Source: a virus
Strand: one strand, 5' to 3'
DNA: 33,792 bases
IMG/VR virus record: IMGVR_UViG_3300036828_000373
Coordinates: 1 to 33,792 of that record
Position numbers and translations under genes: made by a program. This document shows positions 6,457 to 17,991 of this stretch, in pieces. The notes under the pieces were generated by a model. It had not been told where the DNA came from. It saw only the letters and a program-made list of their open reading frames with translations, and made no database searches. Position 1 is the first letter of the stretch; every line of letters starts with the position of its first letter.

Positions 6457-6928
6457 ACTAACTGTTGGAAACACGGGGTACAAACCCTGAAAAAATTATT
6501 TATCGGTTTGACCCCAAAAGTTCTGACGGACTGTTTTACAAAAAGTGAGAATTTGTGGAGCGGGAAGGAAAGTCGGACCCGCACCGAGGCGACAAAAGAT
6601 AGTAAATGAGTTTAGTCGGCCAACACAGATTCTCCGTATAGGGCGACCTTTAGGGAAGGGTGCGGACAGGCACCAAAGGCAGATGAGCAGAATGCCATTG
6701 TCCAGCACGGGACGATCCGGTGATTATGGCCCTCACAACGTCATTTGATATGGCGCAGGGCCAATATGGAGAGGGAGAGCCTCTCCGGTGAATGTCTGCC
6801 GTCGAACTACGGGTGTGACCATTCGATCGGCTATTCCGGGAAACCCCCGTGTCCTCACAAAACTCTTCTCCTAAAGAAGGAGAGTGGAGGGAGGGAGTGG
6901 CTTCGCGCCGCTACTTCTTTCCACTTAG

Positions 6929-6990
6929 CTCTCAAAGGATCACCGCCACGAGGTGAGAGTGGAAACGTCCTTCAGGACGGCCAACGATCC
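6929..6990 (+). promoter_or_regulatory. Structured leader 1, class A (pseudoknot)
   Basis: P1 pairs CTCTCA (6929-6934) with TGAGAG (6954-6959). P2 is CGTCC-ttca-GGACG (6966-6979). The P1 loop strand GGATC (6937-6941) is complementary to GATCC (6986-6990), which abuts the Shine-Dalgarno of the next gene. The conserved loop text is ACCGCCACGAGG and the linker is TGGAAAC. Confidence 0.7.
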
Positions 6991-7007
6991 ATAGAAGGAG
7001 AGAGAAA

Positions 7008-7208
7008 ATGGCGAAAAGCGGATACAAACGGCCGAAACCCGTTTTGATCCCCGTCGATAGCGACGAGTTCAGAGAAGCTCGGCGCAAGTTCTACGCTCGC
7101 GGCGTCTTGGTTGCGGCCATAGAAGGCCGAATACAAGACGCTCACGATCTGGCCAAGGAATGTTCAATCCTTGACCTTGTCGAGGCGAAGAAAGAGTTCA
7201 CGAAATGA
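7008..7208 (+). CDS. Early small protein, 66 aa
   Basis: First gene of the early array. ATG 7008 follows AGAAGGAGAGAGAAA, the shared array Shine-Dalgarno, and the class A leader. The product starts MAKSGYKRPKPVLIPVD, with a basic N-terminus followed by two predicted amphipathic helices and a mixed-charge end (LVEAKKEFTK). No signal peptide, membrane segment or known motif is visible. I do not recognise the family. Small basic proteins first expressed after infection often target host machinery, but nothing here shows that directly. Confidence 0.75.
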   Translation: MAKSGYKRPKPVLIPVDSDEFREARRKFYARGVLVAAIEGRIQDAHDLAKECSILDLVEAKKEFTK

Positions 7209-7228
7209 TTGGGGGCGTAAGCCCCTTG

Positions 7229-7293
7229 CTGACACGATCCACCTCCATGCGGTGTCAGTGGAAACTATGCCGATCGGCGTAGGCCAACGGATC
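7229..7293 (+). promoter_or_regulatory. Structured leader 2, class A (pseudoknot)
   Basis: P1 is CTGACAC (7229-7235) with GTGTCAG (7252-7258). P2 is CTATGCC-gatc-GGCGTAG (7265-7282). The loop strand GATCC (7236-7240) pairs with GGATC (7289-7293). Compared with leader 1 the two pseudoknot strands have swapped sequence. A GC hairpin (GGGGGC-gtaa-GCCCC, 7211-7225) precedes it. Confidence 0.75.
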
Positions 7294-7309
7294 ACAAAGG
7301 AGAGATACC

Positions 7310-7576
7310 ATGAAGAACGGAACCAAGCGCGTTTTGTGCTGGGGCGTGATCGGAGCAGCTTGCTGCGACATAGTCGAAGGCAAAGGCCCGATCGACAGTC
7401 TCGGAGTGGCTACTGGAGACGCAAAAGACTTGGCGGTTTACACCGCCAAAGGCGTCTACAACGGAGCCGCTGCGGCGGGGCGCAAAGTCGCCAACGCCAG
7501 CAACTTCGTCATCGACAAGGTCTTGTCGAGGGAGCCGAAGCGCCACCAGAAGCCACAGCTCAAAAGCGTTTCGTAA
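7310..7576 (+). CDS. Early small protein, 88 aa, with hydrophobic N-terminus
   Basis: ATG 7310 follows AAAGGAGAGATACC. After MKNGTKR comes a hydrophobic, Cys-containing stretch (VLCWGVIGAACCDIVEG) that could insert in or lie against a membrane, then a Gly/Ala-rich middle and a basic Lys/Arg tail. The hydrophobic part is short and contains Gly and Cys, so a membrane location is uncertain. No domain is recognised. It sits between two class A leaders as a single-gene cassette. Confidence 0.72.
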   Translation: MKNGTKRVLCWGVIGAACCDIVEGKGPIDSLGVATGDAKDLAVYTAKGVYNGAAAAGRKVANASNFVIDKVLSREPKRHQKPQLKSVS

Positions 7577-7598
7577 CCAAGGCCCCTGCGGGGGCCAG

Positions 7599-7664
7599 CC
7601 TTCAAAGGATCAACCGCTACGAGGTGAAGGTAGAAACGTCTCATTTCGAGACGGCCAATGATCC
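7599..7664 (+). promoter_or_regulatory. Structured leader 3, class A (pseudoknot)
   Basis: P1 is CCTTCA (7599-7604) with TGAAGG (7625-7630). P2 is CGTCTC-atttc-GAGACG (7637-7653). The loop strand GGATC (7607-7611) pairs with GATCC (7660-7664). The preceding hairpin GGCCCC-tgcg-GGGGCC lies at 7581-7596. Confidence 0.75.
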
Positions 7665-7686
7665 ACAAAGGAGAGAGAGAGAGACA

Positions 7687-8142
7687 ATGATTATCAATGT
7701 GACGCAGCACGACGCCACCCCCGATCAGATCGCGGCAGGCGTCGTTGAACTGCTGCCACAATACAAGGAGGCGGTTCGCGGCGCGCTCACTTTTAGTGAG
7801 CTGCCGAACCACCAGAATAAATTGTTGCACAGCCGAGCCGCGCAGATTGCGCAGCTGGTTCTCAACCAATTCCTCATGCATCACGTGCCTAAAGGGGAAA
7901 GGCTGGCGATGATCGGTGGCGCCCCCTTTTTCATGAGCCACTTGGAAATGGCTCTGTTTGAGGCGAGCATCTGTCCGGTCTACGCTTTCAGCCAGCGCGT
8001 CTCGGAGGAGACGAATCAGGCTGACGGCAGTGTAAAGAAGACGCAAGTCTTCAAACATGAAGGCTTCGTCTTCGGCCGCGACTGGCGATGCAACTTCTTT
8101 TCCGAGGCAAGCGATATCTTATGCAAGGCAAGAGATCGCTAA
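7687..8142 (+). CDS. Conserved mobile-element protein with IGGAP and YAFSxR motifs, 151 aa
   Basis: ATG 7687 follows AAAGGAGAG and a GAGA run. The product opens MIINVTQHDATPDQIAAGVV and contains AMIGGAPFFM (about residues 78-87) and CPVYAFSQRVSEE, then a DGSVKKTQVFKHEGFVFGRD region. I recall proteins of this pattern (NxTQHxATPxQ, IGGAP, YAFSxR, FxHxGFV) as widespread in phages and integrative elements with no established function. The last 15 residues (after GRDW) look appended and may be phage-specific. It is a cytosolic alpha/beta protein by appearance. The longer upstream extension of this frame overlaps the previous gene and leader and is not used. Confidence 0.8.
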   Translation: MIINVTQHDATPDQIAAGVVELLPQYKEAVRGALTFSELPNHQNKLLHSRAAQIAQLVLNQFLMHHVPKGERLAMIGGAPFFMSHLEMALFEASICPVYAFSQRVSEETNQADGSVKKTQVFKHEGFVFGRDWRCNFFSEASDILCKARDR

Positions 8143-8170
8143 ACCTCGGAAGGCCCCCTACAGGGGCTTA

Positions 8171-8234
8171 CTCGCACGATCCACCTCCACGCGGTGCGAG
8201 TGGCTCTCCAGCCAATCGGTTGGACGAACGGATC
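8171..8234 (+). promoter_or_regulatory. Structured leader 4, class A (pseudoknot)
   Basis: P1 is CTCGCAC (8171-8177) with GTGCGAG (8194-8200). P2 is TCCAGCC-aatc-GGTTGGA (8207-8224). The loop strand GATCC (8178-8182) pairs with GGATC (8230-8234), directly before AACAAAGGAGAGA. Confidence 0.75.
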
Positions 8235-8255
8235 AACAAAGGAGAGAGACATGAA

Positions 8256-8426
8256 ATGGTAGATCAAGTAAGACAGAAGATCGCTGACCGCATCAAGCTC
8301 GTCGCAGCACCCCTTATCGAAACGGTGCTGCGACGTTTGCTTGGTGATGCAGGGATCAAGGTGACAGTGACAATCGAGAGGTTACAACCAAAAGCTACCA
8401 ACCTCGAAAAGGCACCAGCACCGTAG
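8256..8426 (+). CDS. Early small protein, 56 aa, amphipathic
   Basis: I chose ATG 8256 because ATG 8251, which sits at the standard array distance from the Shine-Dalgarno, opens only a three-codon ORF (Met-Lys-Trp-stop) whose TAG overlaps this start. The product (MVDQVRQKIADRIKLVAAPL...) is predicted to be a helix pair followed by a short beta segment (IKVTVTIERLQ). It has no membrane segment or motif that I recognise. Translation may depend on re-initiation after the mini-ORF. Confidence 0.65.
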   Translation: MVDQVRQKIADRIKLVAAPLIETVLRRLLGDAGIKVTVTIERLQPKATNLEKAPAP

Positions 8427-8487
8427 ATCGCAAGCTAGGCCAGCTCCCAAAACGCGGGAGCTGGCTTGTGGTTGCGATAATGCAACC
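8427..8487 (+). promoter_or_regulatory. Structured leader 5, class C (P1/P2 with alternative P3)
   Basis: P1 is ATCGCAA (8427-8433) with TTGCGAT (8472-8478). P2 is GCCAGCTCC with GGAGCTGGC (8439-8447 / 8457-8465). Alternative P3 is GGTTGC (8470-8475) with GCAACC (8482-8487). P1 and P3 share TTGC and exclude each other. The sequence starts directly after the upstream stop. Confidence 0.7.
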
Positions 8488-8506
8488 AACACCAGAGAAT
8501 GACGAC

Positions 8507-8546
8507 AACGAGGCGCCGGTCTCCAAAACCGGCGTCTCGTTCGTTT
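8507..8546 (+). terminator. Strong intrinsic terminator inside the leader of the TTG-start gene
   Basis: AACGAGGCGCCGGT (8507-8520) pairs with ACCGGCGTCTCGTT (8528-8541) over 14 positions with one G-U pair, then CGTTTTT. It lies between the structured leader and the next gene, so it should attenuate downstream expression unless it is bypassed. Confidence 0.75.
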
Positions 8547-8577
8547 TTCTGGTTCACTCAGACGAAAGGAGAGAGAC

Positions 8578-8718
8578 TTGATCAAAACGATCAAACGCAC
8601 GCTTGTGGATTTGCAGTCGGAGGGTGTGCTCCAATACCCGGAGCGAGCTGCTCTGATGCTTTTCCTGATCTCGTCAATACTGCTCGTATTGGCGATAACG
8701 TGCGGCTTCAAATTATGA
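8578..8718 (+). CDS. Small membrane protein with TTG start, 46 aa
   Basis: TTG 8578 sits at the standard distance after GAAAGGAGAGAGAC, exactly where other array genes have ATG. The product has a basic N-terminal half (MIKTIKRTLVDLQ, reading TTG as Met) and a single C-terminal transmembrane segment (ALMLFLISSILLVLAITCGF). The stop overlaps the next gene's ATG as ATGA. The rare start and the upstream terminator suggest low or conditional expression, as expected for a potentially toxic membrane peptide. Its role is unknown. Confidence 0.65.
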   Translation: MIKTIKRTLVDLQSEGVLQYPERAALMLFLISSILLVLAITCGFKL

Positions 8719-8897
8719 GTGGCCAAATTCACGCCCGAGCTGTTTTCGGCTGCGATGAAAACTCTTGGGTCCGCCCGTTGTGCGGCACACAAGGCGCAAT
8801 GGGATGCGAAATGGCTCCGCAAGGAGCCTATGAGCAGGTCACTTGCAAAGAGTGCAAGCGAAGGCTTTTCGCTCTCGCTCTTATCGATAAAGAATGA
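8715..8897 (+). CDS. Small Cys-rich, probably zinc-binding protein, 60 aa
   Basis: ATG 8715 overlaps the preceding TGA (ATGA), so translation is coupled. The product contains cysteines at FGCDEN, PLCGTQ, MGCEM and a CKEC pair (VTCKECKRR), a pattern typical of a small treble-clef or zinc ribbon. The stop TGA 8895-8897 lies at the edge of P1 of the next leader, as in several other cassettes. That supports this frame over the competing frame from GTG 8719. Function is unknown. Confidence 0.65.
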   Translation: MSGQIHARAVFGCDENSWVRPLCGTQGAMGCEMAPQGAYEQVTCKECKRRLFALALIDKE

Positions 8898-8944
8898 GCG
8901 CAGCTAGGGTGGCCTACGGGCCACCTCATGGTGCGTTTCGCACC
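8896..8944 (+). promoter_or_regulatory. Structured leader 6, class C
   Basis: P1 is GAGCGCA (8896-8902) with TGCGTTT (8932-8938). P2 is GGTGGCC-tacg-GGCCACC (8908-8925). Alternative P3 is GGTGCG (8930-8935) with CGCACC (8939-8944). The upstream stop codon overlaps P1. Unlike other copies, about 40 bases with a second small hairpin separate it from the Shine-Dalgarno. Confidence 0.75.
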
Positions 8945-8999
8945 CAGACCCCTCCTGAGCATGAGGCAAAAAGGCTCACAACCAAAAGGAGAGATGACA

Positions 9000-9383
9000 A
9001 TGATGAGTCCCTCTACAATCCGTGAAATGTCCCGTGATGCTGCAAAGAGAGCAGCGCGCGCCCGCAAGGAGCCGTGGGAGGCTACTCCCGACGCTCTGGA
9101 ACGCGGACGCAACGGTGACACCAGCGGCGTAGAAATCCCGTTCCTCGGCGATCACGTTCCCAAAGGCTGGGAACGCATCAACCTGATGGAGCCGAAGCGC
9201 GGGTGGCACGAAGACGTTGACGGCTTTGGCGCCTATTTCGTCGATACCTCCGGGTTCGGCGGCTCAGGCGAGCCTGCTCTGACTCAGAAGCAACTCATGG
9301 AAGTTCTGCTTCCAGGATACGGGTATGCTCTGATCGAGTGCGGGCAATTCCAAGGCTACGTCGGCGTGTTCCGCCGCAAATAG
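9000..9383 (+). CDS. Conserved phage hypothetical protein, 127 aa
   Basis: I chose ATG 9000 because the in-frame ATG 8994 is only two bases from the GGAGAG site. A basic Ala/Arg-rich helix (about residues 8-24) is followed by a region with IPFLGDHVPKGWERI, DGFGAYFVDTSGFG and a C-terminal YALIECGQFQGYVGVFRRK. It looks like a compact soluble alpha/beta protein. Similar small proteins are, as I recall, common in phages of alphaproteobacteria without known function. Confidence 0.75.
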   Translation: MMSPSTIREMSRDAAKRAARARKEPWEATPDALERGRNGDTSGVEIPFLGDHVPKGWERINLMEPKRGWHEDVDGFGAYFVDTSGFGGSGEPALTQKQLMEVLLPGYGYALIECGQFQGYVGVFRRK

Positions 9384-9384
9384 G

Positions 9385-9437
9385 ATTGTGAGCCGCTGCT
9401 CGTCCATGTGGGCGAGCAGCTACGCACAATCATGTGC
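9385..9437 (+). promoter_or_regulatory. Structured leader 7, class B
   Basis: P1 is ATTGTG (9385-9390) with CACAAT (9425-9430). P2 is GCTGCTCG with CGAGCAGC (9395-9402 / 9413-9420). The internal loop is AGCC opposite TACG. Alternative P3 is GCAC (9424-9427) with GTGC (9433-9436), abutting AAAAAGGAGAG. Confidence 0.7.
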
Positions 9438-9452
9438 AAAAAGGAGAGAGAC

Positions 9453-9890
9453 ATGCCTGAGTTCATTCTCAACATGGGCACTCCCGAAGCCGCGAGCAAG
9501 TTCAAAGAACTCAGCGAGTTTAATCGCGGCTACATTGAAGCAGCATTCTGGACTTCAAGCGGAGATGCCGAAGACGGCGATCTGCACGAAGCCAGCTTTG
9601 CTGAATTAGAACCGAAAGCTCTAGCCGAGATGCTCGAAGCCTGTCTGGATTTTGAAAGGCTGGCTGGTCCATTATTGGATCACGTCTACATCCTGGAGAA
9701 AAAGGACGGCAATTTAGCTTATAGTCCCCACCAAGCCGGTGTTGATTTCTGGTTGACCAGAAACGGTCACGGTGCGGGGTTCTGGGATCGTGGTCTCGGC
9801 GAAGTCGGCAACCAGCTGACTCGTGACGCGAAAAGCTTCGGCTCCTGCGATCTCTATCGTGGAGACGATAATCTGATCTACGTCACGTAG
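9453..9890 (+). CDS. Conserved phage hypothetical protein with GHGAGFWDRGLG motif, 145 aa
   Basis: ATG 9453 follows AAAAAGGAGAGAGAC. The product has a GYIEAAFWTSSGD segment near residue 27, an acidic middle, and a strongly conserved-looking C-terminal part: HQAGVDFWLTRNGHGAGFWD, then CDLYRGDDNLIYV. I recognise the FWLTRNGHGAGFWDRG pattern from many phage genomes, always as a protein of unknown function. It is soluble, with no signal peptide. Confidence 0.85.
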   Translation: MPEFILNMGTPEAASKFKELSEFNRGYIEAAFWTSSGDAEDGDLHEASFAELEPKALAEMLEACLDFERLAGPLLDHVYILEKKDGNLAYSPHQAGVDFWLTRNGHGAGFWDRGLGEVGNQLTRDAKSFGSCDLYRGDDNLIYVT

Positions 9891-9943
9891 CGTGACGCGA
9901 CCCGATGGGCGGCGCAACCCGCCCATCCAGCCGCAGCACGCGG
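9891..9943 (+). promoter_or_regulatory. Structured leader 8, class C (divergent)
   Basis: P1 is CGTG-ac-GCG (9891-9899) with CGC-ag-CACG (9932-9940). P2 is GATGGGCGG with CCGCCCATC (9904-9912 / 9919-9927). Alternative P3 is CCGC (9931-9934) with GCGG (9940-9943). It begins at the base after the upstream TAG. Confidence 0.55.
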
Positions 9944-9959
9944 AAAAAGGAGAGAAAGC

Positions 9960-10409
9960 ATGAGCAGACAGATGCGTCTGATCGAGCACCTTGCCAACAG
10001 CATTGTCGCCATGAGGAATTGCGAGAAGAATGGCAATACCGAGTGGCACGACAAGCACTACGAGAGGATTCTGTGGCTGGTAAAGAATGCCCTGCCTTCG
10101 GGCTCGGGCATCGACAGCGGCACCAAGATCGACTTCGACGCGAGCAACGGAGACGCTCCGGAGAAGATCGTTCTGCAATGCAGCTTCCACCACATGGATG
10201 AACACGGCGGCTACGACGGATGGACAGACCACACCGTCGTAGCCCGGCCGTCATTCGTCCTCGGGATCGACCTCACGATCACCGGCAAGGATCGCAACGA
10301 CATCAAGGACTACTTGAGTGAGGTCTACTACGACGCATTGATGCAGCAATGGACAGAAACTGAAAGCGGCTTCAGCAGAACGCCGCCAGCGAAGTCCGAC
10401 GCTGCCTAA
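9960..10409 (+). CDS. Conserved phage hypothetical protein, 149 aa
   Basis: ATG 9960 follows AAAAAGGAGAGAAAGC. The N-terminal third is helical with a WHDKHYERILWLVKNALPSG segment. The middle has KIDFDASNGDAPEKIVLQCSF. The C-terminal part reads as a beta-rich domain (FVLGIDLTITGKDRNDIKDY) with a final helix. It resembles early phage proteins of unknown function. No catalytic motif is visible. Confidence 0.8.
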   Translation: MSRQMRLIEHLANSIVAMRNCEKNGNTEWHDKHYERILWLVKNALPSGSGIDSGTKIDFDASNGDAPEKIVLQCSFHHMDEHGGYDGWTDHTVVARPSFVLGIDLTITGKDRNDIKDYLSEVYYDALMQQWTETESGFSRTPPAKSDAA

Positions 10410-10434
10410 GCTAAGGGGCGCTCCTGCGCCCTAA

Positions 10435-10489
10435 ACCCGCACGACCAAAGCCGCCACGAGGCGCGGGTGGATAACCAACCAATTTGGTC
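10435..10489 (+). promoter_or_regulatory. Structured leader 9, class A (pseudoknot, divergent)
   Basis: P1 is ACCCGC (10435-10440) with GCGGGT (10463-10468). The loop strand GACCAAA (10443-10449) pairs perfectly with TTTGGTC (10483-10489), although the sequence is wholly different from GGATC/GATCC. The conserved loop GCCGCCACGAGG is kept. P2 is not obvious. A hairpin GGGCGC-tcct-GCGCCC precedes it at 10416-10431. Confidence 0.7.
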
Positions 10490-10520
10490 ACGCTCAATCT
10501 TAAAAGGAGAGAGAAATACC

Positions 10521-10712
10521 ATGATGCACGTCATCGTGCTCGTGAACAGCTTTTTGCTGACCCTGTTCATCATCGCCAACCATAGCTCGGTTCATGCCAC
10601 TGCCACTCGGCAGTGGATTGAATATGAGTGGGTCATGGCGGATCGCTGGGACGCCTGGGAAGGCCGCATGGCCGAACTCCCGGCATCCCTCAACATCGAA
10701 GACAGGAGGTAA
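10521..10712 (+). CDS. Small protein with N-terminal signal or anchor, 63 aa
   Basis: ATG 10521 follows AAAAGGAGAGAGAAATACC. The first 20 residues (MMHVIVLVNSFLLTLFIIAN) form a transmembrane segment or uncleaved signal. The remaining 40 residues are acidic and Trp-rich (IEYEWVMADRWDAWEGRM) and would be periplasmic or cytoplasmic depending on topology. The next gene follows by one base, and the AGGAGGT for it lies in the last codons here. Function is unknown. Confidence 0.7.
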   Translation: MMHVIVLVNSFLLTLFIIANHSSVHATATRQWIEYEWVMADRWDAWEGRMAELPASLNIEDRR

Positions 10713-10713
10713 C

Positions 10714-11034
10714 ATGACAGAAAAATCACGTTACGAAGTGGCGGTCGAGAATATGACCGACAAGCAGAAAGAAGCTTGTCGGCTTCTGGGGATCACCACA
10801 GACGAGTGGTGGTTCTGCATCGGCCGCTACCTCCACGTCACCAAAGAGCTATCGACGCTGCGAGTCGGCGTCGCCCGCATTGCCCAATACTTGGACGTTG
10901 ATGGGGTTCATGGCAGCCGGGACACCGGCTACCAGGAGCTTCACAAGCGTTCAGTCGAGATCGACCGGGGCTGGAACGCGCTTTGCGCGGCCATCCTCAA
11001 TAAGCTCGACGCGTGGGCTCTGGACAGACACTGA
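10714..11034 (+). CDS. Early hypothetical protein, 106 aa
   Basis: ATG 10714 has the strong Shine-Dalgarno AGGAGGT inside the end of the previous gene, so the two are coupled and this gene needs no leader of its own. The product is mostly helical, with MTDKQKEACRLLGITTDEWW near residue 13 and a C-terminal GWNALCAAILNKLDAWALD helix. No known motif is seen. Confidence 0.72.
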   Translation: MTEKSRYEVAVENMTDKQKEACRLLGITTDEWWFCIGRYLHVTKELSTLRVGVARIAQYLDVDGVHGSRDTGYQELHKRSVEIDRGWNALCAAILNKLDAWALDRH

Positions 11035-11043
11035 TATAGACTG

Positions 11044-11104
11044 ATCCAGCTCGATGCAGCGGCCGTAGCCGCTGCATCAGGGTGGATGGTCAAACAACTC
11101 CACC
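11044..11104 (+). promoter_or_regulatory. Structured leader 10, class C
   Basis: P1 is ATCCA (11044-11048) with TGGAT (11083-11087). P2 is GATGCAGCGGC-cgta-GCCGCTGCATC (11053-11078). Alternative P3 is GGTGGA (11081-11086) with TCCACC (11099-11104), abutting the Shine-Dalgarno. Confidence 0.7.
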
Positions 11105-11118
11105 AGAAGGAGAGAAAC

Positions 11119-11328
11119 ATGACAAGAAAACAGGTCATGCAGGCACTCACCAAGCTTGAGCAGCCGCATGAAGCAGATTCGAAGGAGCTGGAGGTCCGCG
11201 TCACCACCATGCACGGCGTGCTGTTCGAAGGGGAGGTTCACGATCCCGAAGACGGCCTGCTCCGCATCGATGGTGCACTCAAAGTGGCCTTCATCAAGCT
11301 CGAATCGATCATCGCGATCGAAGGGTGA
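11119..11328 (+). CDS. Early small protein, 69 aa
   Basis: ATG 11119 follows AGAAGGAGAGAAAC. The N-terminal helix (MTRKQVMQALTKLEQ) leads into a predicted small beta-barrel (LEVRVTTMHGVLFEGEVHD, LRIDGALKVAFIKLESIIAI). That strand pattern is reminiscent of SH3- or Sm-like folds, but I cannot assign a family. It is followed three bases later by a coupled gene. Confidence 0.7.
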   Translation: MTRKQVMQALTKLEQPHEADSKELEVRVTTMHGVLFEGEVHDPEDGLLRIDGALKVAFIKLESIIAIEG

Positions 11329-11331
11329 GCT

Positions 11332-11547
11332 ATGCATCACCTGCTCACCGTCAACATCACGTGGCCGGACGGCGAATTGCTCGAACAGGTGAAAATCATC
11401 GAGCTGGAGCCAGGCCGCGACCCGATCGCGGTAGCAAAGAACATCGTCGAGCACATCGAACGGAACTACGAAACCGTGCCCGTGTCGTTCGGCGAAGCCG
11501 TTGCGACTGTCCTGCGGGAGTGGGCAAAGCTTCCGAAAGAGGACTGA
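11332..11547 (+). CDS. Early small protein, 71 aa
   Basis: ATG 11332 lies three bases after the previous stop, with GAAGGG as a modest ribosome site, so coupling is likely. The product opens with two beta strands (HHLLTVNITWPDGELLEQVK) followed by helices. No motif is recognised. Its TGA 11545-11547 overlaps P1 of the next leader, so termination here could influence that RNA's folding. Confidence 0.7.
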   Translation: MHHLLTVNITWPDGELLEQVKIIELEPGRDPIAVAKNIVEHIERNYETVPVSFGEAVATVLREWAKLPKED

Positions 11548-11598
11548 GCGCAGCACCGGGTTGTGGCTTCGGCCACAACCCCATGGTGCGCTTGCACC
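11546..11598 (+). promoter_or_regulatory. Structured leader 11, class C
   Basis: P1 is GAGCGCA (11546-11552) with TGCGCTT (11587-11593). P2 is GGTTGTGGC-ttcg-GCCACAACC (11559-11580). Alternative P3 is GGTGC (11585-11589) with GCACC (11594-11598), one base before the AAAAAGGAGAG stretch. Confidence 0.75.
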
Positions 11599-11615
11599 GA
11601 AAAAGGAGAGAAGAG

Positions 11616-12086
11616 ATGAAACTAATCCATTACTCGGACACACCGCTTACAACGGTGCGTTCGATGGGTCAGGAAAACGAGGGCAAGCCATGTGGCTTAT
11701 GGTTGTCAGTCAATGACGACTGGTTAACATGGTGCCGCTCGGAGCAGTTCCAACTGCATAGTCTGGCCCACGCTACCGAGGTGATCCTTGCCGCAGGAGC
11801 GAATATCCTGCGGCTTCACTCACCCGACGAGCTTGATGAGTTCTCAAAACGGTTCGCTCATGGTGGACTTGATTATGAGATCAATCACTGTGTTCGTTGG
11901 AGCGAAGTCGCCAATCTTTGGCAAGGCATCATCATCGAACCCTATCAATGGTCCCGCCGATTAACGCCACACACATCGTGGTATTACGGCTGGGACATTG
12001 CATCAGGGTGCATCTGGGATGCCGAAACGGTCGCTGAGCTGCGACCAATAAACATCCCAGCAGAGTGCAGCACCGAGGGGGTTTAA
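11616..12086 (+). CDS. Conserved phage hypothetical protein (LIHYS ... WYYGWDIASGCIWD), 156 aa
   Basis: ATG 11616 follows AAAAAGGAGAGAAGAG. The product opens MKLIHYSDTPL and contains KPCGLWLSVNDDWLTWC (about 24-40), GIIIEPYQWSRR (about 104-115) and WYYGWDIASGCIWDAE (about 121-136). I recognise this set of motifs from many phages as an uncharacterised family. The conserved His, Tyr, Ser, Trp and Cys residues look like an active site, perhaps a transferase, but I cannot name a reaction. The gene's last codons include the 5' half of the next leader. Confidence 0.82.
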   Translation: MKLIHYSDTPLTTVRSMGQENEGKPCGLWLSVNDDWLTWCRSEQFQLHSLAHATEVILAAGANILRLHSPDELDEFSKRFAHGGLDYEINHCVRWSEVANLWQGIIIEPYQWSRRLTPHTSWYYGWDIASGCIWDAETVAELRPINIPAECSTEGV

Positions 12087-12115
12087 CATCCCCTCCATGG
12101 TGCGCTTTTTGCACC
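12062..12115 (+). promoter_or_regulatory. Structured leader 12, class C, overlapping the upstream stop codon
   Basis: P1 is AGAGTGCA (12062-12069, inside the upstream gene) with TGCGCTTT (12101-12108). P2 is GAGGGG with CCCCTC (12075-12080 / 12090-12095), and the upstream TAA sits in its loop. Alternative P3 is GGTGC (12099-12103) with GCACC (12111-12115). Confidence 0.7.
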
Positions 12116-12128
12116 AAAGGAGAGAAGA

Positions 12129-12431
12129 ATGGAAACCAACCAAACACTAGAGGACCAACTGATCGCCGAATTTGCGGCGTTCATCGAACGCACCGGATTC
12201 CCCAAAATGTCCGCTGACGAGCTTTGGTGCGAGCTTCTCGCTCACGAATGCAACGACAGCGAACTTTTGCGCGGACAACGGCAAGCCACCGAAGCAGAAC
12301 TGGAATGGCTTGAAACGTTCAGCAAACGCTGGGAAGCTATGGAGAACGCTTGCCGCGAAGCTCATCGCCGGGCGGAGCAGCGCATCGCCGACCACATCGA
12401 CGATGATCTCGGCGAATCTCCAGACTTCTAG
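12129..12431 (+). CDS. Early helical protein, 100 aa
   Basis: ATG 12129 follows AAAGGAGAGAAGA. The whole product is predicted helical and acidic (METNQTLEDQLIAEFAAFIE; later ELEWLETFSKRWEAMENACR), with a coiled-coil-like central helix and an Asp/Glu-rich end. There is no membrane segment and no recognised motif. It may be a small binding or inhibitor protein, but that is speculation. Confidence 0.75.
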   Translation: METNQTLEDQLIAEFAAFIERTGFPKMSADELWCELLAHECNDSELLRGQRQATEAELEWLETFSKRWEAMENACREAHRRAEQRIADHIDDDLGESPDF

Positions 12432-12435
12432 CTAG

Positions 12436-12491
12436 ATTGTGAGCCGATGCCCGCCCAGTGGGTTGGGCATCTACGCACAATCAAACGTGCG
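12436..12491 (+). promoter_or_regulatory. Structured leader 13, class B
   Basis: P1 is ATTGTG (12436-12441) with CACAAT (12476-12481). P2 is GATGCCC with GGGCATC (12446-12452 / 12465-12471). The internal loop is again AGCC opposite TACG. Alternative P3 is CGCAC (12474-12478) with GTGCG (12487-12491). Confidence 0.72.
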
Positions 12492-12504
12492 AGAAGGAGA
12501 GACA

Positions 12505-12720
12505 ATGACAAAAGAAGAACACAAAATCACTTTCGGAACGCTGACACCAGCCGGACTGACGAACGTCCGCATGATCAAGCAATCCGACATCGGCAAATGC
12601 CCGCACTTCATCATGCTCCCCCAACATTACCGCGACGATGGGAGTTGCAAATGCAACGATCCCAACGAGACGGTCATGAAGGAATGGGGCTACAAGTGGA
12701 GGAACGGGCAATGGCGGTGA
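12505..12720 (+). CDS. Early small protein with His/Cys residues, 71 aa
   Basis: ATG 12505 follows AGAAGGAGAGACA. The second half (GKCPHFIMLPQHYRDDGSCK, then C and N residues) has three Cys and two His, with spacing that could bind zinc. The C-terminus KEWGYKWRNGQW is aromatic and basic. The pattern CPHFIMLPQHYRxDGSCxC is familiar from phage small proteins, but no function is known to me. The following gene overlaps its end by ten bases. Confidence 0.75.
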   Translation: MTKEEHKITFGTLTPAGLTNVRMIKQSDIGKCPHFIMLPQHYRDDGSCKCNDPNETVMKEWGYKWRNGQWR

Positions 12721-12917
12721 AACAAAACAAAGCTGAGAAAGCGATCGACCGCAGGGTCGAGAAAGCTTACTACGCCAGTTGCTCCGGTGTCCAGATCAAC
12801 ATCATGGACATCGGCAAAATCTTCGCCTTCGGGCGAATGAAAGTCGCGGCCGGTGAAGATGACGAGGCGCTGAAATCAAGTATCCGCGCCTACGTCGAAA
12901 CCATTCGCACGAACTAG
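12711..12917 (+). CDS. Early small protein, 68 aa
   Basis: ATG 12711 overlaps the previous gene by ten bases, with GGAGGAACGGG just upstream as ribosome site. The product (MAVKQNKAEKAIDRRVEKAY...) is basic at the N-terminus. Its centre (GVQINIMDIGKIFAFGRMKV) and a C-terminal helix are seen in other phage small proteins, as I recall, with unknown role. No leader of its own; expression is coupled. Confidence 0.72.
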   Translation: MAVKQNKAEKAIDRRVEKAYYASCSGVQINIMDIGKIFAFGRMKVAAGEDDEALKSSIRAYVETIRTN

Positions 12918-12969
12918 TTGCCAACGCAGAGGCCGTCCGCTGTGGCGGCCTCGATGGTGGCAACCCCAC
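12917..12969 (+). promoter_or_regulatory. Structured leader 14, class C, before the DUF932 gene
   Basis: P1 is GTTGCCA (12917-12923) with TGGCAAC (12958-12964). P2 is GAGGCC with GGCCTC (12929-12934 / 12947-12952). Alternative P3 is the short GTGG (12957-12960) with CCAC (12966-12969). A terminator follows at once. Confidence 0.62.
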
Positions 12970-12970
12970 T

Positions 12971-12998
12971 CAACCAGTCACTCGGCTGGTTGTTTTTT
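12971..12998 (+). terminator. Intrinsic terminator inside the DUF932 leader
   Basis: CAACCAG (12971-12977) pairs with CTGGTTG (12986-12992) and is followed by TTTTTT. It sits between the leader and the Shine-Dalgarno of the DUF932 gene, only about 16 bases from the ATG, which looks like an attenuator. Confidence 0.7.
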
Positions 12999-13013
12999 GA
13001 AGGAGAGAGACAA

Positions 13014-14066
13014 ATGATGAAAGGCATCAGCTTGGTGGAATTGGCTCAGAAGATCGAAGCCAATCGCTCCGCCAAGAAGGACTTCATCAGCGACACCAGA
13101 GACCTAACGCTGTTGACGAAGCCAGGTTTGGAAAAGCCCACCGTGGTTCTCGAAGTCAGGAACCAGGGCCAATTCCCGATCCAGCCGCTGGCACACGATC
13201 AGATCGGCACCCATCTCGGTATCCCGTCGAAATATTACGATCGGATGCTGAAGGAAGCTCCCGACCTGCTCGCGACCAACGTCAACGCTTGGTTCCGCAA
13301 GGAGCCCAAGAGTCGGATGATCCGCACGTTGCGCGGCAACGACAGAGCTTTCCTCTCGAACTCGTTCAATCGGATCGAGAACGAGGAAATCTCGGAAGTC
13401 GCGCTGCCGGTTCTGGCCGACATCCCCGACGTGACTTTCGTCTCGACCGAGGTGACCGACAAGCGCCTGTATATCCAGGCCGTCGCACCGCGGATTCAGG
13501 GCGAGATCAGGAAGGGCGATATCGTCCAGGCAGGCGTGCTGATCAAGAACAGCGAAGTCGGCCTCGGTGCCGTCTCAGTCGCCTCAGTTCTGTGGCGGCT
13601 GCTCTGCCTCAACGGCATGGTTGGCTCGGACGTGTTCAGTGCCCGCCACGTTGGGCGGCGTATCGAAGATAACGCCGCACTCTGGGCCGAAGACACAGTC
13701 AAAGCCGATGACCGCGCGGTCTTGCTCAAAGTCCGCGATATGGTCAGGGCCGCGGTGGATGAAACCAATTTCCAGAAGCAGATCACCCAAGCACGTGATC
13801 TGGTGGAAGGCAGAATCACCGGCGACCCGCAGAAGGTGGTCGAAGTCCTGGCCGAGAAAGTCGGAGCCAATGAAACCGAGAAGGGCGGCATCTTGCGCGC
13901 CCTGATCGAAGGCGGCGACCTCTCAGCTTGGGGATTGCTCAATGCCGTGACCGCTCAGAGCCACACCGCGCGGGATTTCGACCGCGCCGTGGAGTTCGAG
14001 AGGGCCGGTGGGCAGTTACTCGACCTGCCGAGAACCGAATGGAAGGAGCTGCTTCAGGCAGCTTGA
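13014..14066 (+). CDS. DUF932 family protein, 350 aa
   Basis: This is the largest gene of the early array. ATG 13014 (an ATG also follows at 13017) comes after GAAGGAGAGAGACAA. It matches the DUF932 family of phage and plasmid proteins: an N-terminal domain with GQFPIQPLAHDQIGTHLGIP and YYDRML, a middle with RTLRGNDRAFLSNSFNRIEN and DKRLYIQAV, then GIVIxNSEVGxG-like text here as VLIKNSEVGLGAVSVASVLW with RLLCLNGM. The C-terminal part is helical, with a LLNAVTAQSHTARDFDRAVE segment. Function is unknown for the family. Expression appears to be controlled by both a structured leader and an intrinsic terminator. Confidence 0.88.
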   Translation: MMKGISLVELAQKIEANRSAKKDFISDTRDLTLLTKPGLEKPTVVLEVRNQGQFPIQPLAHDQIGTHLGIPSKYYDRMLKEAPDLLATNVNAWFRKEPKSRMIRTLRGNDRAFLSNSFNRIENEEISEVALPVLADIPDVTFVSTEVTDKRLYIQAVAPRIQGEIRKGDIVQAGVLIKNSEVGLGAVSVASVLWRLLCLNGMVGSDVFSARHVGRRIEDNAALWAEDTVKADDRAVLLKVRDMVRAAVDETNFQKQITQARDLVEGRITGDPQKVVEVLAEKVGANETEKGGILRALIEGGDLSAWGLLNAVTAQSHTARDFDRAVEFERAGGQLLDLPRTEWKELLQAA

Positions 14067-14069
14067 TTC

Positions 14070-14131
14070 GGTTGTAAGCCTAGGGTGGTTCCCTCACAGG
14101 GGAGCCACCATGGGGTTGCAATCATGCAGCC
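14070..14131 (+). promoter_or_regulatory. Structured leader 15, class B/C
   Basis: P1 is GGTTGTAA (14070-14077) with TTGCAATC (14116-14123). P2 is a long hairpin from GGTGG (14084) to CCACC (14109). Alternative P3 is GGTTGCA (14114-14120) with TGCAGCC (14125-14131), sharing bases with P1. Confidence 0.68.
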
Positions 14132-14150
14132 ATCCAAGAAGGAGAGAGAA

Positions 14151-14522
14151 ATGTCTTGGAAACCCGAAGTCATCGCTGACAATTCTGGCAAGTGGTGCGG
14201 CAACGCACTGCGCTTCGCCACCAAAGAGGAAGCGGAAGCTCAAGTCTTCGACTTGTCCTGCCGCTGGACGGAGGTGCGCGAAACCCGAGCGATCGAATGC
14301 GATGATCCAGTGAACAGCCAGTGGGTTGACGGCAGAACGGTTCCTGCTGGCCCGCAGCCTCCGATAGACGAAGAGAAGCTAGTTACAGCCCATAAATTAG
14401 GGCGCAAGGACTGGAGCGAAGGTGGCTCAATGTCACCTCCATTCGTCAATGAGGAGGAAAAGGACGCCTACAAGGCGGGGTGGCTGGGAGAAAAGCGCCG
14501 CGCCGAGCAAGGCGGCCTCTGA
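14151..14522 (+). CDS. Conserved phage hypothetical protein, 123 aa
   Basis: ATG 14151 follows AAGAAGGAGAGAGAA. The N-terminal 55 residues (MSWKPEVIADNSGKWCGNAL, RFATKEEAEAQV, RWTEVRETRAIECDDPVN) match a small phage and plasmid family I recall as conserved but uncharacterised. The C-terminal half (about 75-123) looks like a second short helical module, with KLGRKDWSEGG and AYKAGWLGEKRR. The two parts may be a fusion of two early peptides. Confidence 0.78.
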   Translation: MSWKPEVIADNSGKWCGNALRFATKEEAEAQVFDLSCRWTEVRETRAIECDDPVNSQWVDGRTVPAGPQPPIDEEKLVTAHKLGRKDWSEGGSMSPPFVNEEEKDAYKAGWLGEKRRAEQGGL

Positions 14523-14571
14523 ATGCAGCTAGTCTGGCCCTTCGGGGCCAGATCAGGGTGCATTCCGCACC
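14521..14571 (+). promoter_or_regulatory. Structured leader 16, class C
   Basis: P1 is GAATGCA (14521-14527) with TGCATTC (14559-14565), a compensated change from GAGCGCA/TGCGCTT elsewhere. P2 is TCTGGCCC-ttcg-GGGCCAGA (14533-14552). Alternative P3 is GGTGC (14557-14561) with GCACC (14567-14571). Confidence 0.75.
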
Positions 14572-14587
14572 ATAGAAGGAGAGAGAA

Positions 14588-14773
14588 ATGCAGAAGTTCT
14601 ACGAAAGTCTCATTGAGCGTATGGCTCGGCGTTTCATGTTGGCTGGCCTGTATAGGGCCGTCGAGAACACCGACAAGTTCACGAAGGATTATCTCGGCGA
14701 CCACCATGACTTCGACGAGCTGAAGCTCAAGGCACCGAAGGTGCCCGAGATCGAGTATTCTGCACAGCTCTGA
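14588..14773 (+). CDS. Early small protein, 61 aa
   Basis: ATG 14588 follows AGAAGGAGAGAGAA. The N-terminal 25 residues (MQKFYESLIERMARRFMLAG) form a basic amphipathic helix that could lie on a membrane or on nucleic acid. The rest is charged and ends KVPEIEYSAQL. No domain is recognised. It is a single-gene cassette between two leaders. Confidence 0.72.
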   Translation: MQKFYESLIERMARRFMLAGLYRAVENTDKFTKDYLGDHHDFDELKLKAPKVPEIEYSAQL

Positions 14774-14781
14774 CAAGACAT

Positions 14782-14836
14782 CATCGACTGAGCGGCGGCG
14801 AAATCCGCCGCTCCCCGATGCTGTTTGATAAGCATC
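14782..14836 (+). promoter_or_regulatory. Structured leader 17, class C
   Basis: P1 is CATCG (14782-14786) with CGATG (14816-14820). P2 is GAGCGGCGG-cgaaat-CCGCCGCTC (14790-14813). Alternative P3 is GATGCT (14817-14822) with AGCATC (14831-14836), abutting AAAAGGAGAG. Confidence 0.68.
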
Positions 14837-14851
14837 AAAAGGAGAGACACC

Positions 14852-15442
14852 ATGAAAATGGAACCAATCAAGACGATTGATCTGGACTGTGTCCAGGTCA
14901 AAATCTACCCAGACGATTTTGGGGACCAGGAATGTCCGTTGGATTGCCTCGAAGGCGCCGACGATATCAAAGTCCTCGTCTGGGATCGCCGTTCTACGTT
15001 GTCAGATCGCAACGAGTTCAAGAACGACGATCCAAATGACATTCCAGGCTGGGCATTCTTTCACGGCTACTACAGCTTCCCCCTGTTCAAATACGAGCAC
15101 GGAGCAGTAGTGTATGCCGTGACTGAGGGCGGCAATCCGTTCCACTGCCCCTGGGACAGCGGACAAACGGGGTGGGTGCTGGTCAAGATAATTGACTGGA
15201 AAGACAGCACTCCATTAACGGTTGCCGAAAGCTGGGCGAAAGCCATAACGACATGGTGCAATGGCTGGTACTATGGTTTCGTCATTGAAGACCAGCGCGG
15301 CGAACATCTCGATTCGTGCTGGGGCTTTGACGACGATGACTACTGCGAGAGCGAAGCTCTCGAAATCGCCAAACATCATGTTGAAGAGCTTCAAACCAAA
15401 AAGGCGCGGAAGCTCGAAGCTAACCGCCCTGATATGTACTAA
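14852..15442 (+). CDS. Conserved phage hypothetical protein, 196 aa
   Basis: ATG 14852 follows AAAAGGAGAGACACC. The product contains WAFFHGYYSFPLFKYEHGAV (about 67-86), NPFHCPWDSGQTGWVLVKI (about 95-113), TTWCNGWYYGFVIEDQ (about 134-149) and a CWGFDDDDY acidic patch. This combination (HGYYSFPLF, CPWDSGQTG, WNGxYYGF) is familiar to me from many phage genomes as an uncharacterised protein. The Cys, His, Trp and Asp clusters suggest a folded enzyme or binding domain. No function can be stated. Confidence 0.82.
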   Translation: MKMEPIKTIDLDCVQVKIYPDDFGDQECPLDCLEGADDIKVLVWDRRSTLSDRNEFKNDDPNDIPGWAFFHGYYSFPLFKYEHGAVVYAVTEGGNPFHCPWDSGQTGWVLVKIIDWKDSTPLTVAESWAKAITTWCNGWYYGFVIEDQRGEHLDSCWGFDDDDYCESEALEIAKHHVEELQTKKARKLEANRPDMY

Positions 15443-15489
15443 GCGCAGCTTGGGCGGCCTACGGGCCGCCTTCTGGTGCGCTTCGCACC
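15441..15489 (+). promoter_or_regulatory. Structured leader 18, class C
   Basis: P1 is AAGCGCA (15441-15447) with TGCGCTT (15477-15483), perfect over 7 bp. P2 is GGCGGCC-tacg-GGCCGCC (15453-15470). Alternative P3 is GGTGCG (15475-15480) with CGCACC (15484-15489). The TAA of the upstream gene overlaps P1. Confidence 0.78.
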
Positions 15490-15503
15490 AAGAGGAGAGA
15501 GAA

Positions 15504-15770
15504 ATGAACGTACTGACACGAAAGCAGCGCGAGGCATTGTTCCGCGTCTTTCAACGCGACTTCCCAGGATGGGAGTCGCCGTTCAAGAGACGCGAGAGCA
15601 AACCATGTCCTCGTTGCGGTTATGCGGGAGAAGCCGTCCGCGTTCCATCCCAGCAATGGCGAAACTTCCGGAAAAAAGTCGTGGGTTATTCAGACGGTTC
15701 CGGATGCGTCATGATCCCCTGGCGCGGAATGTGGCTCGGAGTAGAAAAAGATGGCTACACGCATTCGTGA
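15504..15770 (+). CDS. Small protein with CPRCG motif, 88 aa
   Basis: ATG 15504 follows AGAGGAGAGAGAA. The product is basic. It has a helical N-terminus (MNVLTRKQREALFRVFQRDF), a CPRCG zinc-type pair at about residues 35-39 and a C-terminal region ending VEKDGYTHS. The C-terminus is echoed at the end of the following HNH protein (RDGYTHS), which starts inside this gene's last codons in another frame. This suggests the endonuclease gene was inserted at this 3' end. Confidence 0.75.
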   Translation: MNVLTRKQREALFRVFQRDFPGWESPFKRRESKPCPRCGYAGEAVRVPSQQWRNFRKKVVGYSDGSGCVMIPWRGMWLGVEKDGYTHS

Positions 15771-16266
15771 AATTTGGAAGCCAATCCCAGGATATGAGGG
15801 GAAGTACAGCGCTTCCAATATGGGGTGTGTTAGATCGCACACCCATAAAGCGCGAATACTAAAGCCATTTCCAAATGGCAAAACGCACCATTTGGCTGTG
15901 GCCTTGATGCACAATGGTAAGAAACAGACACGATTTGTTCATTGCCTTGTGCTATTGGTCTTCCGAGGTCCATGCCCGCCTGGGCTAGAATGTCGTCACC
16001 TAGACGGCACTCACAACAATTCCCTCTGCAATTTGCAGTATGGAACGAAGCAAGAGAACTACAAAGATCGCATCAAACATGGAACTGGCAATGAAGGCGA
16101 AAAAAGCCCGAATGCAAAGTTGACATGGCAATTGGTGCGACTGATCAGATCGTCACGAAAATCACGGAGGGGTCTCGCCAAACAATTCGGCGTTAGCCAT
16201 ACGGTGATTAACGATATCCTAAGCAACAAAGCTTGGATCGAACGTGACGGCTACACACACTCGTAA
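15751..16266 (+). CDS. HNH homing endonuclease with NUMOD4-type N-terminus, 171 aa
   Basis: The N-terminus (IWKPIPGYEGKYSASNMGCV) is a NUMOD4-type DNA-binding motif. It is followed by an HNH_3-type nuclease: RFVHCLVLLVF, CRHLDGTHNNSLCNLQYGT (about 104-122) and KQEN. The C-terminal 60 residues hold a resolvase-like helix-turn-helix (RGLAKQFGVSHTVINDIL). It starts within the previous gene without an array leader, and its base composition is more AT-rich than its neighbours. Free-standing endonucleases of this kind are selfish elements that move into intergenic sites. The final residues duplicate the end of the upstream gene's protein. Confidence 0.88.
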   Translation: MATRIREIWKPIPGYEGKYSASNMGCVRSHTHKARILKPFPNGKTHHLAVALMHNGKKQTRFVHCLVLLVFRGPCPPGLECRHLDGTHNNSLCNLQYGTKQENYKDRIKHGTGNEGEKSPNAKLTWQLVRLIRSSRKSRRGLAKQFGVSHTVINDILSNKAWIERDGYTHS

Positions 16267-16403
16267 AGGAGATTCAGATAGCTCAAGCCTGATGGGCTAG
16301 TGGCGGGGAAAGGTTAATGCGTCCCCTGCCACATCTCTCCTTGGGTCCTTGACAAGGGTGACCCTTCAGGCGACCCTTGTCACTAGTGTAGTGGAGCGCG
16401 ATC
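16267..16403 (+). other. Hairpin-bearing spacer upstream of the second HNH gene
   Basis: Two hairpins lie here. One pairs GTGGC-GGGG (16300-16308) with CCCC-T-GCCAC (16323-16332). The other pairs TGACAAGGGT (16350-16359) with ACCCTTGTCA (16373-16382), perfect over 10 bp. No array Shine-Dalgarno AAGGAGAGA precedes the HNH gene, although AAAGGAGA follows the first HNH stop at 16266-16272. Confidence 0.55.
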
Positions 16404-16901
16404 ATGAAAACTCAAATCGCTGCTGGCCAACGATTTGACCGTTTGGTCGCGCTTCGCGACACTAGAAAGAGAGCCAAAAGTGGCCAAGCTTTTTGGGAAT
16501 TTCTTTGTGACTGTGGGCAAACTAAGTCTATCAGAGCTTATAAAGTCACGTCAGGCAACACTCGATCTTGTGGATGCCTACGCAAAGAACTGCTTTTGCA
16601 GCTTAATTCTCACAAGAAAGGAGCAAAGCTGCATAGAATGTCAAAACTTCCAGGATACCTCGTTTGGCGAAGAATGATTTCGCGATGCGAGAATCCAAAC
16701 GATAATGACTACCGCCGCTACGGTGGTAGAGGAATCAGAGTTTGTAAACGCTGGTTTCTATTTGAGAATTTCTTAGCTGATATGGGACCGCCTCCTTCAG
16801 GCAGGTCTATTGACCGCATCAACAATGATCGCGGGTATTCGCCAAGAAATTGCCGATGGGCAACTACGAGCGAACAAGCAAACAACAAAAGCCGTAGTTA
16901 A
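16404..16901 (+). CDS. HNH-type homing endonuclease, 165 aa
   Basis: The N-terminal part has a Cys cluster (FLCDCGQ ... SCGCLRKE) that probably binds zinc. The second half carries the typical phage endonuclease text YLVWRRMISRCENPNDNDYR, RYGGRGIRVCKRW, SIDRINNDRGYSPRNCRWAT and EQANNKSRS. This matches the family often annotated as HNH or AP2-associated endonuclease. It has only a weak upstream ribosome site (GTGGAGCG). It is probably another invasive gene next to the first HNH gene, splitting the early array. Confidence 0.85.
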   Translation: MKTQIAAGQRFDRLVALRDTRKRAKSGQAFWEFLCDCGQTKSIRAYKVTSGNTRSCGCLRKELLLQLNSHKKGAKLHRMSKLPGYLVWRRMISRCENPNDNDYRRYGGRGIRVCKRWFLFENFLADMGPPPSGRSIDRINNDRGYSPRNCRWATTSEQANNKSRS

Positions 16902-16922
16902 CCCCAACAATCCCGTTCAGGC

Positions 16923-16978
16923 AATCGTGGCCTTCTGCACCGTCGCAAGGCGGTGCAGGGGGACGCGATTCTTGCGTC
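16923..16978 (+). promoter_or_regulatory. Structured leader 19, class C
   Basis: P1 is AATCGTG (16923-16929) with CGCGATT (16964-16970). P2 is CTGCACCG with CGGTGCAG (16935-16942 / 16951-16958). Alternative P3 is GACGC (16962-16966) with GCGTC (16974-16978), two bases before AAAAGGAGAGAGAC. Confidence 0.7.
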
Positions 16979-16993
16979 AAAAAGGAGAGAGAC

Positions 16994-17914: not shown

Positions 17915-17925
17915 TCATTATGGCC

Positions 17926-17971
17926 TAATTATGAGCCGATGCTGCCTACGGGCAGCATCTACGCATAATTA
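17926..17971 (+). promoter_or_regulatory. Structured leader 20, class B
   Basis: P1 is TAATTATG (17926-17933) with CATAATTA (17964-17971). P2 is GATGCTGCC-tacg-GGCAGCATC (17938-17959). The AGCC/TACG internal loop matches leaders 7 and 13, while the P1 bases changed in a compensated way. P3 is weak here. Confidence 0.72.
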
Positions 17972-17991
17972 CAAAGCAAAAGGAGAGAAGA

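Follow-up and report, generated by a model that had tools for sequence, protein, structure and literature searches.

The 33,792-base IMG/VR virus record IMGVR_UViG_3300036828_000373 (positions 1 to 33,792, referred to here as the window) carries five leader sequences, numbered 1, 2, 3, 4 and 9, that are predicted to be self-cleaving ribozymes of the hepatitis delta virus (HDV)-like class and to cut the early polycistronic transcript of the phage into mostly single-gene mRNAs, a reading to which we assign a probability of roughly 85%. It is based on the fold signature of the leaders, its covariation, their position, and the occurrence of twister ribozymes at the corresponding place in another phage contig (L003), all of which are directly observed.

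Each of the five leaders holds a full HDV-like fold (Table 1), the common parts of which are a 6-bp P1, a P2 helix, a 3-bp P3, a 7-nt L3, a 2-bp P1.1, usually P4, and a J4/2 segment of the form C-N-A-A. Leader 1 reads GCTCTC (P1), AAA (J1/2), GGATC (P2), ACC (P3), GCCACGA (L3), GGT (P3'), GAGAGT (P1'), GG (P1.1), AAACGTCCTTCAGGACGG (J1.1/4 and P4), CCAAC (J4/2) and GATCC (P2'), followed by ATAGA and the Shine-Dalgarno (SD) sequence AGGAGAG. Leader 9 is a minimal form that lacks P4 and has a P2 of 7 bp. An earlier note on this DNA had described two complementary segments in these leaders as the strands of a pseudoknot, and the segments are present as claimed: GGATC and GATCC in leader 1, GATCC and GGATC in leaders 2 and 4, GGATCA and TGATCC in leader 3, and GACCAAA and TTTGGTC in leader 9. 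In the HDV-like nested double pseudoknot they form helix P2. The 5' segment had been placed in a hairpin loop; instead, it sits on the 5' side between the coaxial stem parts P1 and P3, and the stem is in fact capped by a conserved 7-mer, [GT]C[CT]A[CT]G[AC]. The intervening hairpin, which the note called P2, is paired in leaders 1-4 as described, corresponds to P4 in ribozyme terms, and is missing from leader 9.

Covariation across further phage contigs had been proposed as a check on this pairing. An IMG/VR scan with a pattern made up of P3, L3 and the GTRGAAAC segment only, which left J4/2, P2 and all of P1 but its outer G free, returned 13 contigs, most of them by chance, and four with the whole fold (L003, L009, L013 and L017). 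The complementarity of P2 is retained in all four with other bases (ACCCA/TGGGT, AGTCT/AGACT, AAGTC/GACTT and GTCT/AGAT), so that P2 is paired in all nine copies, with one G-U in L009. The reciprocal changes read as evidence of long-range pairing hold up for leader 9 and the four outside copies, which covary; on its own, the exchange seen between leaders 1/3 and 2/4 counts for little, because GGATCC is palindromic. P1 is also paired throughout the nine copies, and five of its six positions vary. Furthermore, P1.1 pairs CC with GG in seven copies and CT with AG in two, and is never mixed; J4/2 follows C-N-R-A in all nine; and the outer P1 pair is G-U in seven copies, including every outside copy, and A-U in two. 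Together, P1.1, the catalytic C of J4/2 and the outer G-U of the seven copies make up the signature of an HDV-like self-cleaving ribozyme.

In a permissive Rfam scan, leaders 1 and 3 matched HDV-F-prausnitzii (RF02682) with 26.8 bits (E 0.0089) and 24.5 bits (E 0.032), and leader 2 matched drz-agam-1 (RF01787) with 20.8 bits (E 0.15), all below the gathering scores of 44 and 37, respectively, which are curation thresholds and not biochemical features. The Rfam alignments of leaders 1-3 place P1, P3, L3, P4 and J4/2 as in the assigned fold; the RF02682 model, according to its structure line, contains no P2 pairing. The best Rfam matches of the outside copies in L003 and L009 are HDV-like ribozyme families as well, again below gathering. 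A known riboswitch or other Rfam family was considered for the leaders and rejected, as the permissive scans yielded only HDV-like families as plausible, and no Rfam family reaches its gathering score anywhere in the window. A covariance model of our own was trained on eight of the nine copies, with leader 9 left out and P4 shortened in some rows. Leaders 1-4 score 46-65 bits under it, as expected for training sequences (leader 4, which entered with a shortened P4, has 46 bits), and leader 9, outside the training set, scores 22.7 bits (E 1.3e-4).

The rarity of the fold was assessed with a descriptor that specifies a P1 of 6-7 bp, a P2 of at least 4 bp, a P3 of 3 bp, P1.1-compatible nucleotides, an L3 of 7 nt in which position 2 is C and position 3 a pyrimidine, and C-N-A ahead of P2'; a version with looser loops gave many chance matches in other loci and was replaced by this tightened one. 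On both strands of the window it finds five matches, all at these leaders (6928, 7227/7228, 7598, 8170 and 10435). Sixty dinucleotide shuffles of the window gave a mean of 0.067 matches and a maximum of 1, a figure that expresses rarity and not an independent prediction, since the descriptor was built after the leaders had been seen. When the catalytic C of the descriptor is replaced by U, A or G, the window matches fall to 0, 0 and 1, and the lone match of the G control is leader 4 in a shifted register; the same substitution control has been applied to theta ribozymes (PMC10879173). A chance origin of the fold was rejected on the shuffles and the catalytic-residue controls, and the independent support for its HDV-like character comes from the Rfam matches and the outside copies.

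The predicted cuts of leaders 2, 3, 4 and 9 fall 20-28 nt past the preceding stop codon (gene ends 7208, 7576, 8142 and 10409); leader 1 is the first in the row and is preceded by about 900 nt without an evident gene. In all nine copies the foot of a hairpin lies 0-5 nt before the predicted cut, the one in L003 being ACCCGG-CGAAT-CCGGGT. These hairpins mostly lack a following T run and are therefore not typical terminators; only the one before leader 1 is terminator-like. Hairpin scores are at least 15.5 for leaders 2, 3, 4 and 9 and for L003, and the window-wide background for scores of at least 15 is 4.6% per position; counting on the opposite side, most gene gaps of the region hold hairpins, which makes the closeness of hairpin and cut less striking than this background suggests, and the hairpin position is therefore supporting rather than decisive.

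A separate hint at function comes from L003, where two twister-P5 ribozymes (RF02684), with 51.2 and 46.8 bits, exceed the Rfam gathering score, and the HDV-like copy scores 28.3 bits, below gathering. All three occupy the slot from a stop codon to the following gene's SD. Since the two twisters share this slot with the HDV-like copy, the slot is used for self-cleaving RNAs in that phage, which suggests that the position, and not the ribozyme class, is under selection. Twister-P5 belongs to another ribozyme class, and none was found in the window.

According to the proposed mechanism, each leader would fold into the nested double pseudoknot while the early operon is transcribed, and the RNA would be cut directly 5' of the first nucleotide of the ribozyme, between the upstream hairpin and the SD of the next gene. 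HDV ribozyme cleavage leaves 2',3'-cyclic phosphate and 5'-OH ends. The upstream product would accordingly carry a 3' hairpin with a 2',3'-cyclic phosphate, and the downstream mRNA would begin with a 5'-OH and a compact ribozyme fold, with an open SD 4-15 nt after it, the distance at which the window ribozymes end ahead of their SDs. HDV-like ribozymes keep an intact core on the downstream RNA after cutting 5' of their first nucleotide (PMC8256844). With cleavage at the first four sites, RNAs of about 300, 370 and 572 nt, each with one small gene, would be set free along with the remainder. Both ends would plausibly withstand exonucleases and decay that depends on a 5'-monophosphate; the likely outcome is a set of independently stable mRNAs, mostly with one gene each, and the phage may benefit.

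The alternative closest to the earlier note is that the leaders are non-catalytic pseudoknots in which the P2' pairing next to the SD tunes ribosome access. The distances in part of the set fit this idea, as 4-5 nt separate the end of P2' from the SD in leaders 1-4 and a single nucleotide in L003, but the separation grows to 15 nt in leader 9 and to 29-72 nt in L009, L013 and L017, and over the nine copies (1, 4, 4, 5, 5, 15, 29, 46 and 72 nt) it is not conserved. Moreover, every copy has the catalytic C and P1.1, neither of which an SD-proximal pseudoknot requires. Cutting is favoured over SD masking because the hairpin-to-cut distance is conserved and the P2'-to-SD distance is not. A pseudoknot beside the ribosome site is well supported, but a translational role through the SD is not its best explanation and seems unlikely. 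A ligand-responsive HDV-like aptazyme, in which a metabolite or phage factor would switch cleavage and the leaders would serve as control elements, is very unlikely: AAAC after P1.1 and GGC before J4/2, both outside the minimal HDV core, are conserved in most window and outside copies, yet AAAC is absent from leaders 4 and 9, the downstream proteins belong to no family, and there is no aptamer-like extra domain. Least likely of all are decayed or mobile functionless copies spread by local duplication, for although leaders 1/3 and 2/4 are pairwise alike and leader 9 lacks P4, the copies occur only directly upstream of ribosome sites, and all five retain P1, P2, P1.1 and the catalytic C intact despite differing helix sequences, which would not be expected under decay.

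Several observations weigh against the self-cleaving reading. The leaders with an Rfam match all stay below gathering, and for leaders 4 and 9 there is no Rfam match at all. These same two leaders have A-U and not G-U at the predicted cleavage site, where leaders 1-3 have G-U, and P4 is absent from leader 9. Folding restricted to nested structures favours other structures for several leaders, although such folding cannot represent pseudoknots. The outside copies are few, namely one and three closely similar ones, perhaps two or three independent; L009, L013 and L017 have almost the same core and amount to about one or two cases. In addition, a close relative of the phage with the same leaders was not found, and the related contigs L004-L008 do not contain them. 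Judged by structure, the leaders nevertheless appear to match the HDV-like class on each testable sequence feature, save the G-U pair in two of them.

The leaders share with HDV-F-prausnitzii (RF02682) and drz-agam-1 (RF01787) the order P1, P2, P3, L3, P1', P1.1, P4, J4/2, P2', and leaders 1 and 3 and the L003 copy align end to end with RF02682 in cmscan. They differ from both families in a P1 of 6 and not 7 bp, a shorter J1/2 and P2, scores below gathering, and a tandem arrangement ahead of phage ribosome sites. This subgroup may be missed by standard Rfam thresholds and so be under-counted. Theta ribozymes of gut Caudoviricetes are likewise HDV-like, occur in tailed-phage genomes and often have a structured RNA immediately ahead of the cut; however, they are minimal forms that lack P4, and in their majority cut at tRNA 3' ends (PMC10879173). 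In contrast, four of the five leaders have P4, the upstream element is a hairpin and not a tRNA, and the copies stand in tandem in an early operon. Theta identity was therefore rejected on account of P4 in leaders 1-4 and the lack of a tRNA in the window (none by ARAGORN). The same study mentions non-tRNA HDV-like ribozymes in phage non-coding regions, mostly sense to the nearest gene and with no known function (PMC10879173), and single members of the present kind may therefore already be catalogued.

The closest functional parallel is found in prophages, where tandem hammerheads flank single genes; they cleave in vitro, one array also does so in E. coli, and a role in the processing of long phage transcripts was suggested for them (Perreault et al. 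2011, PMC3088659). The gene-by-gene layout and the proposed cutting into gene-length mRNAs are common to both systems; the activity of the hammerheads has been demonstrated, the leaders belong to another ribozyme class, and the HDV-like copies would leave the whole ribozyme on the downstream mRNA. No report of tandem HDV-like ribozymes before ribosome sites in a phage operon was found among the open-access literature searched. For HDV-like ribozymes of phages, the processing of tRNA 3' ends is the best-described role. Five copies in one operon, each between a hairpin and an SD, lead to the testable claim that phages use this class as a gene-by-gene cutter of polycistronic mRNA, the function already suggested for hammerheads.

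Searches for further copies added none. The leaders are absent from contigs sharing SbcC-like or DUF932 proteins with the window. The core pattern listed at least 118 stretches in GTDB genome contigs, nearly all chance matches without P1 or P2, and pattern scans that included J4/2 gave 71 and 17 stretches, among which only the already known copies passed. In 385 alphaproteobacterial genomes there was no model match at E 0.001, under strict filters and without a positive control, and parts of Caulobacter, Brevundimonas, Rhizobium and Faecalibacterium phage records yielded no convincing copy. Model matches in L220 (inside a 697-aa open reading frame) and L218 (P1/P2 pairing absent) were rejected, as were descriptor matches in L006, L020, L061 and L162, where either the combined L3/J4/2 consensus or the leader context is missing.

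Table 1. Candidate ribozymes and associated features of the window (contig L003 where stated). ORF, open reading frame.
Feature	Position	Strand	Details	Basis
HDV-like ribozyme 1	6928..6990	+	catalytic C 6981, predicted cleavage 5' of G6928; P1 6928-6933/6955-6960; P2 6937-6941/6986-6990; P3 6942-6944/6952-6954; L3 6945-6951; P1.1 GG 6961-6962; P4 within 6963-6980	descriptor and Rfam
HDV-like ribozyme 2	7228..7293	+	catalytic C 7284, predicted cleavage 5' of G7228	descriptor and Rfam
HDV-like ribozyme 3	7598..7664	+	P1.1 CT/AG, catalytic C 7655, predicted cleavage 5' of G7598	descriptor and Rfam
HDV-like ribozyme 4	8170..8234	+	J4/2 CGAAC, catalytic C 8225	descriptor and own covariance model
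HDV-like ribozyme 5 (leader 9)	10435..10489	+	catalytic C 10479	descriptor and own covariance model
Hairpin before cut 1	6889..6922	+	foot 5 nt before site	-19.8 kcal/mol for 40-nt stretch (RNA fold)
Hairpin before cut 2	7211..7226	+	GGGGGC-GTAA-GCCCCT; after stop codon, foot 1 nt before site	
Hairpin before cut 3	7581..7596	+	GGCCCC-TGCG-GGGGCC; after stop codon, foot 1 nt before site	
Hairpin before cut 4	8151..8169	+	AGGCCCC-CTACA-GGGGCTT; after stop codon, foot at site	
Hairpin before cut 5	10415..10432	+	GGGGCGC-TCCT-GCGCCCT; after stop codon, foot 2 nt before site	
SD and ORF after ribozyme 1	6996..7208	+	SD AGGAGAG; 66-aa ORF (7008-7208)	no family match
SD and ORF after ribozyme 2	7298..7576	+	88-aa ORF (7310-7576)	no family match
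SD and ORF after ribozyme 3	7669..8142	+	151-aa ORF (7687-8142)	no family match
SD and ORF after ribozyme 4	8240..8426	+	56-aa ORF (8256-8426)	no family match
SD and ORF after ribozyme 5	10505..10712	+	63-aa ORF (10521-10712)	no family match
SDs preceded by non-HDV leaders	8567, 9442, 9948, 11108, 11604, 12495, 13001, 14140, 14577, 14840, 15493, 16983, 17981			
Twister-P5 ribozymes of L003	2872-2929 and 3773-3828	-	between phage genes	Rfam

The plus strand of the window encodes an SSB-like protein, a UvsX/RecA-type recombinase and SbcD/SbcC-like subunits, and further downstream, from about 6.9 to 18 kb, a run of mostly small genes, nearly all of them preceded by AGGAGAG; the tail genes lie on the minus strand. 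BLAST of this region against phages gave short matches only, all inside the 9.7-9.8 kb gene, and none against plasmids. Downstream of ribozyme 4, a frame of three codons (ATG AAA TGG TAG, 8251-8262) begins at the first ATG and overlaps the start of the 56-aa ORF at 8256. In L003, two genes on the minus strand (about 3680-3275 and 2365-1870) consist mostly of short tandem repeats, pentapeptide-like and hexapeptide-like.

Most non-HDV leaders in 8481-17975 have another shared layout without an Rfam match, composed of an outer stem of about 7 bp, a purine-G mismatch, 1-2 bp, a small internal loop, a long GC-rich inner hairpin and AGGAGAG, with stem sequences that differ among leaders. This element is possibly a second processing or protein-binding element. 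That nearly all early-region junctions carry RNA processing elements, five of them HDV-like and the rest of the second kind (a processing signal or a new ribozyme class), is unlikely; if true, the operon would be taken apart gene by gene by RNA alone. Twister was considered for these leaders and rejected, as some have the GCGCA/TGCGC stem of the L003 twisters, but without the conserved CCAAGCCC part and without an Rfam match. In one subset (9384-9432, 12435-12483 and 17927-17971), a fixed internal loop AGCC/TACG lies between covarying stems such as GATTGTG/CACAATC and AATTATG/CATAATT. In another (11549-11601, 12073-12117, 14537-14575 and 15455-15492), GGTGC has two possible alternative partners, either the upstream strand (the GCGCA/TGCGC stem) or a downstream GCACC just before the SD, which results in mutually exclusive hairpins and a possible two-state switch. 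Finally, the stretch at 18026-18070 gives a subthreshold tmRNA match (27.1 bits, gathering score 47, E 5e-8) and resembles the 3' end of a tmRNA or tRNA (GCGGGTTCGACTCCCGTCCGGTCCACCA), and it is perhaps an attachment site.

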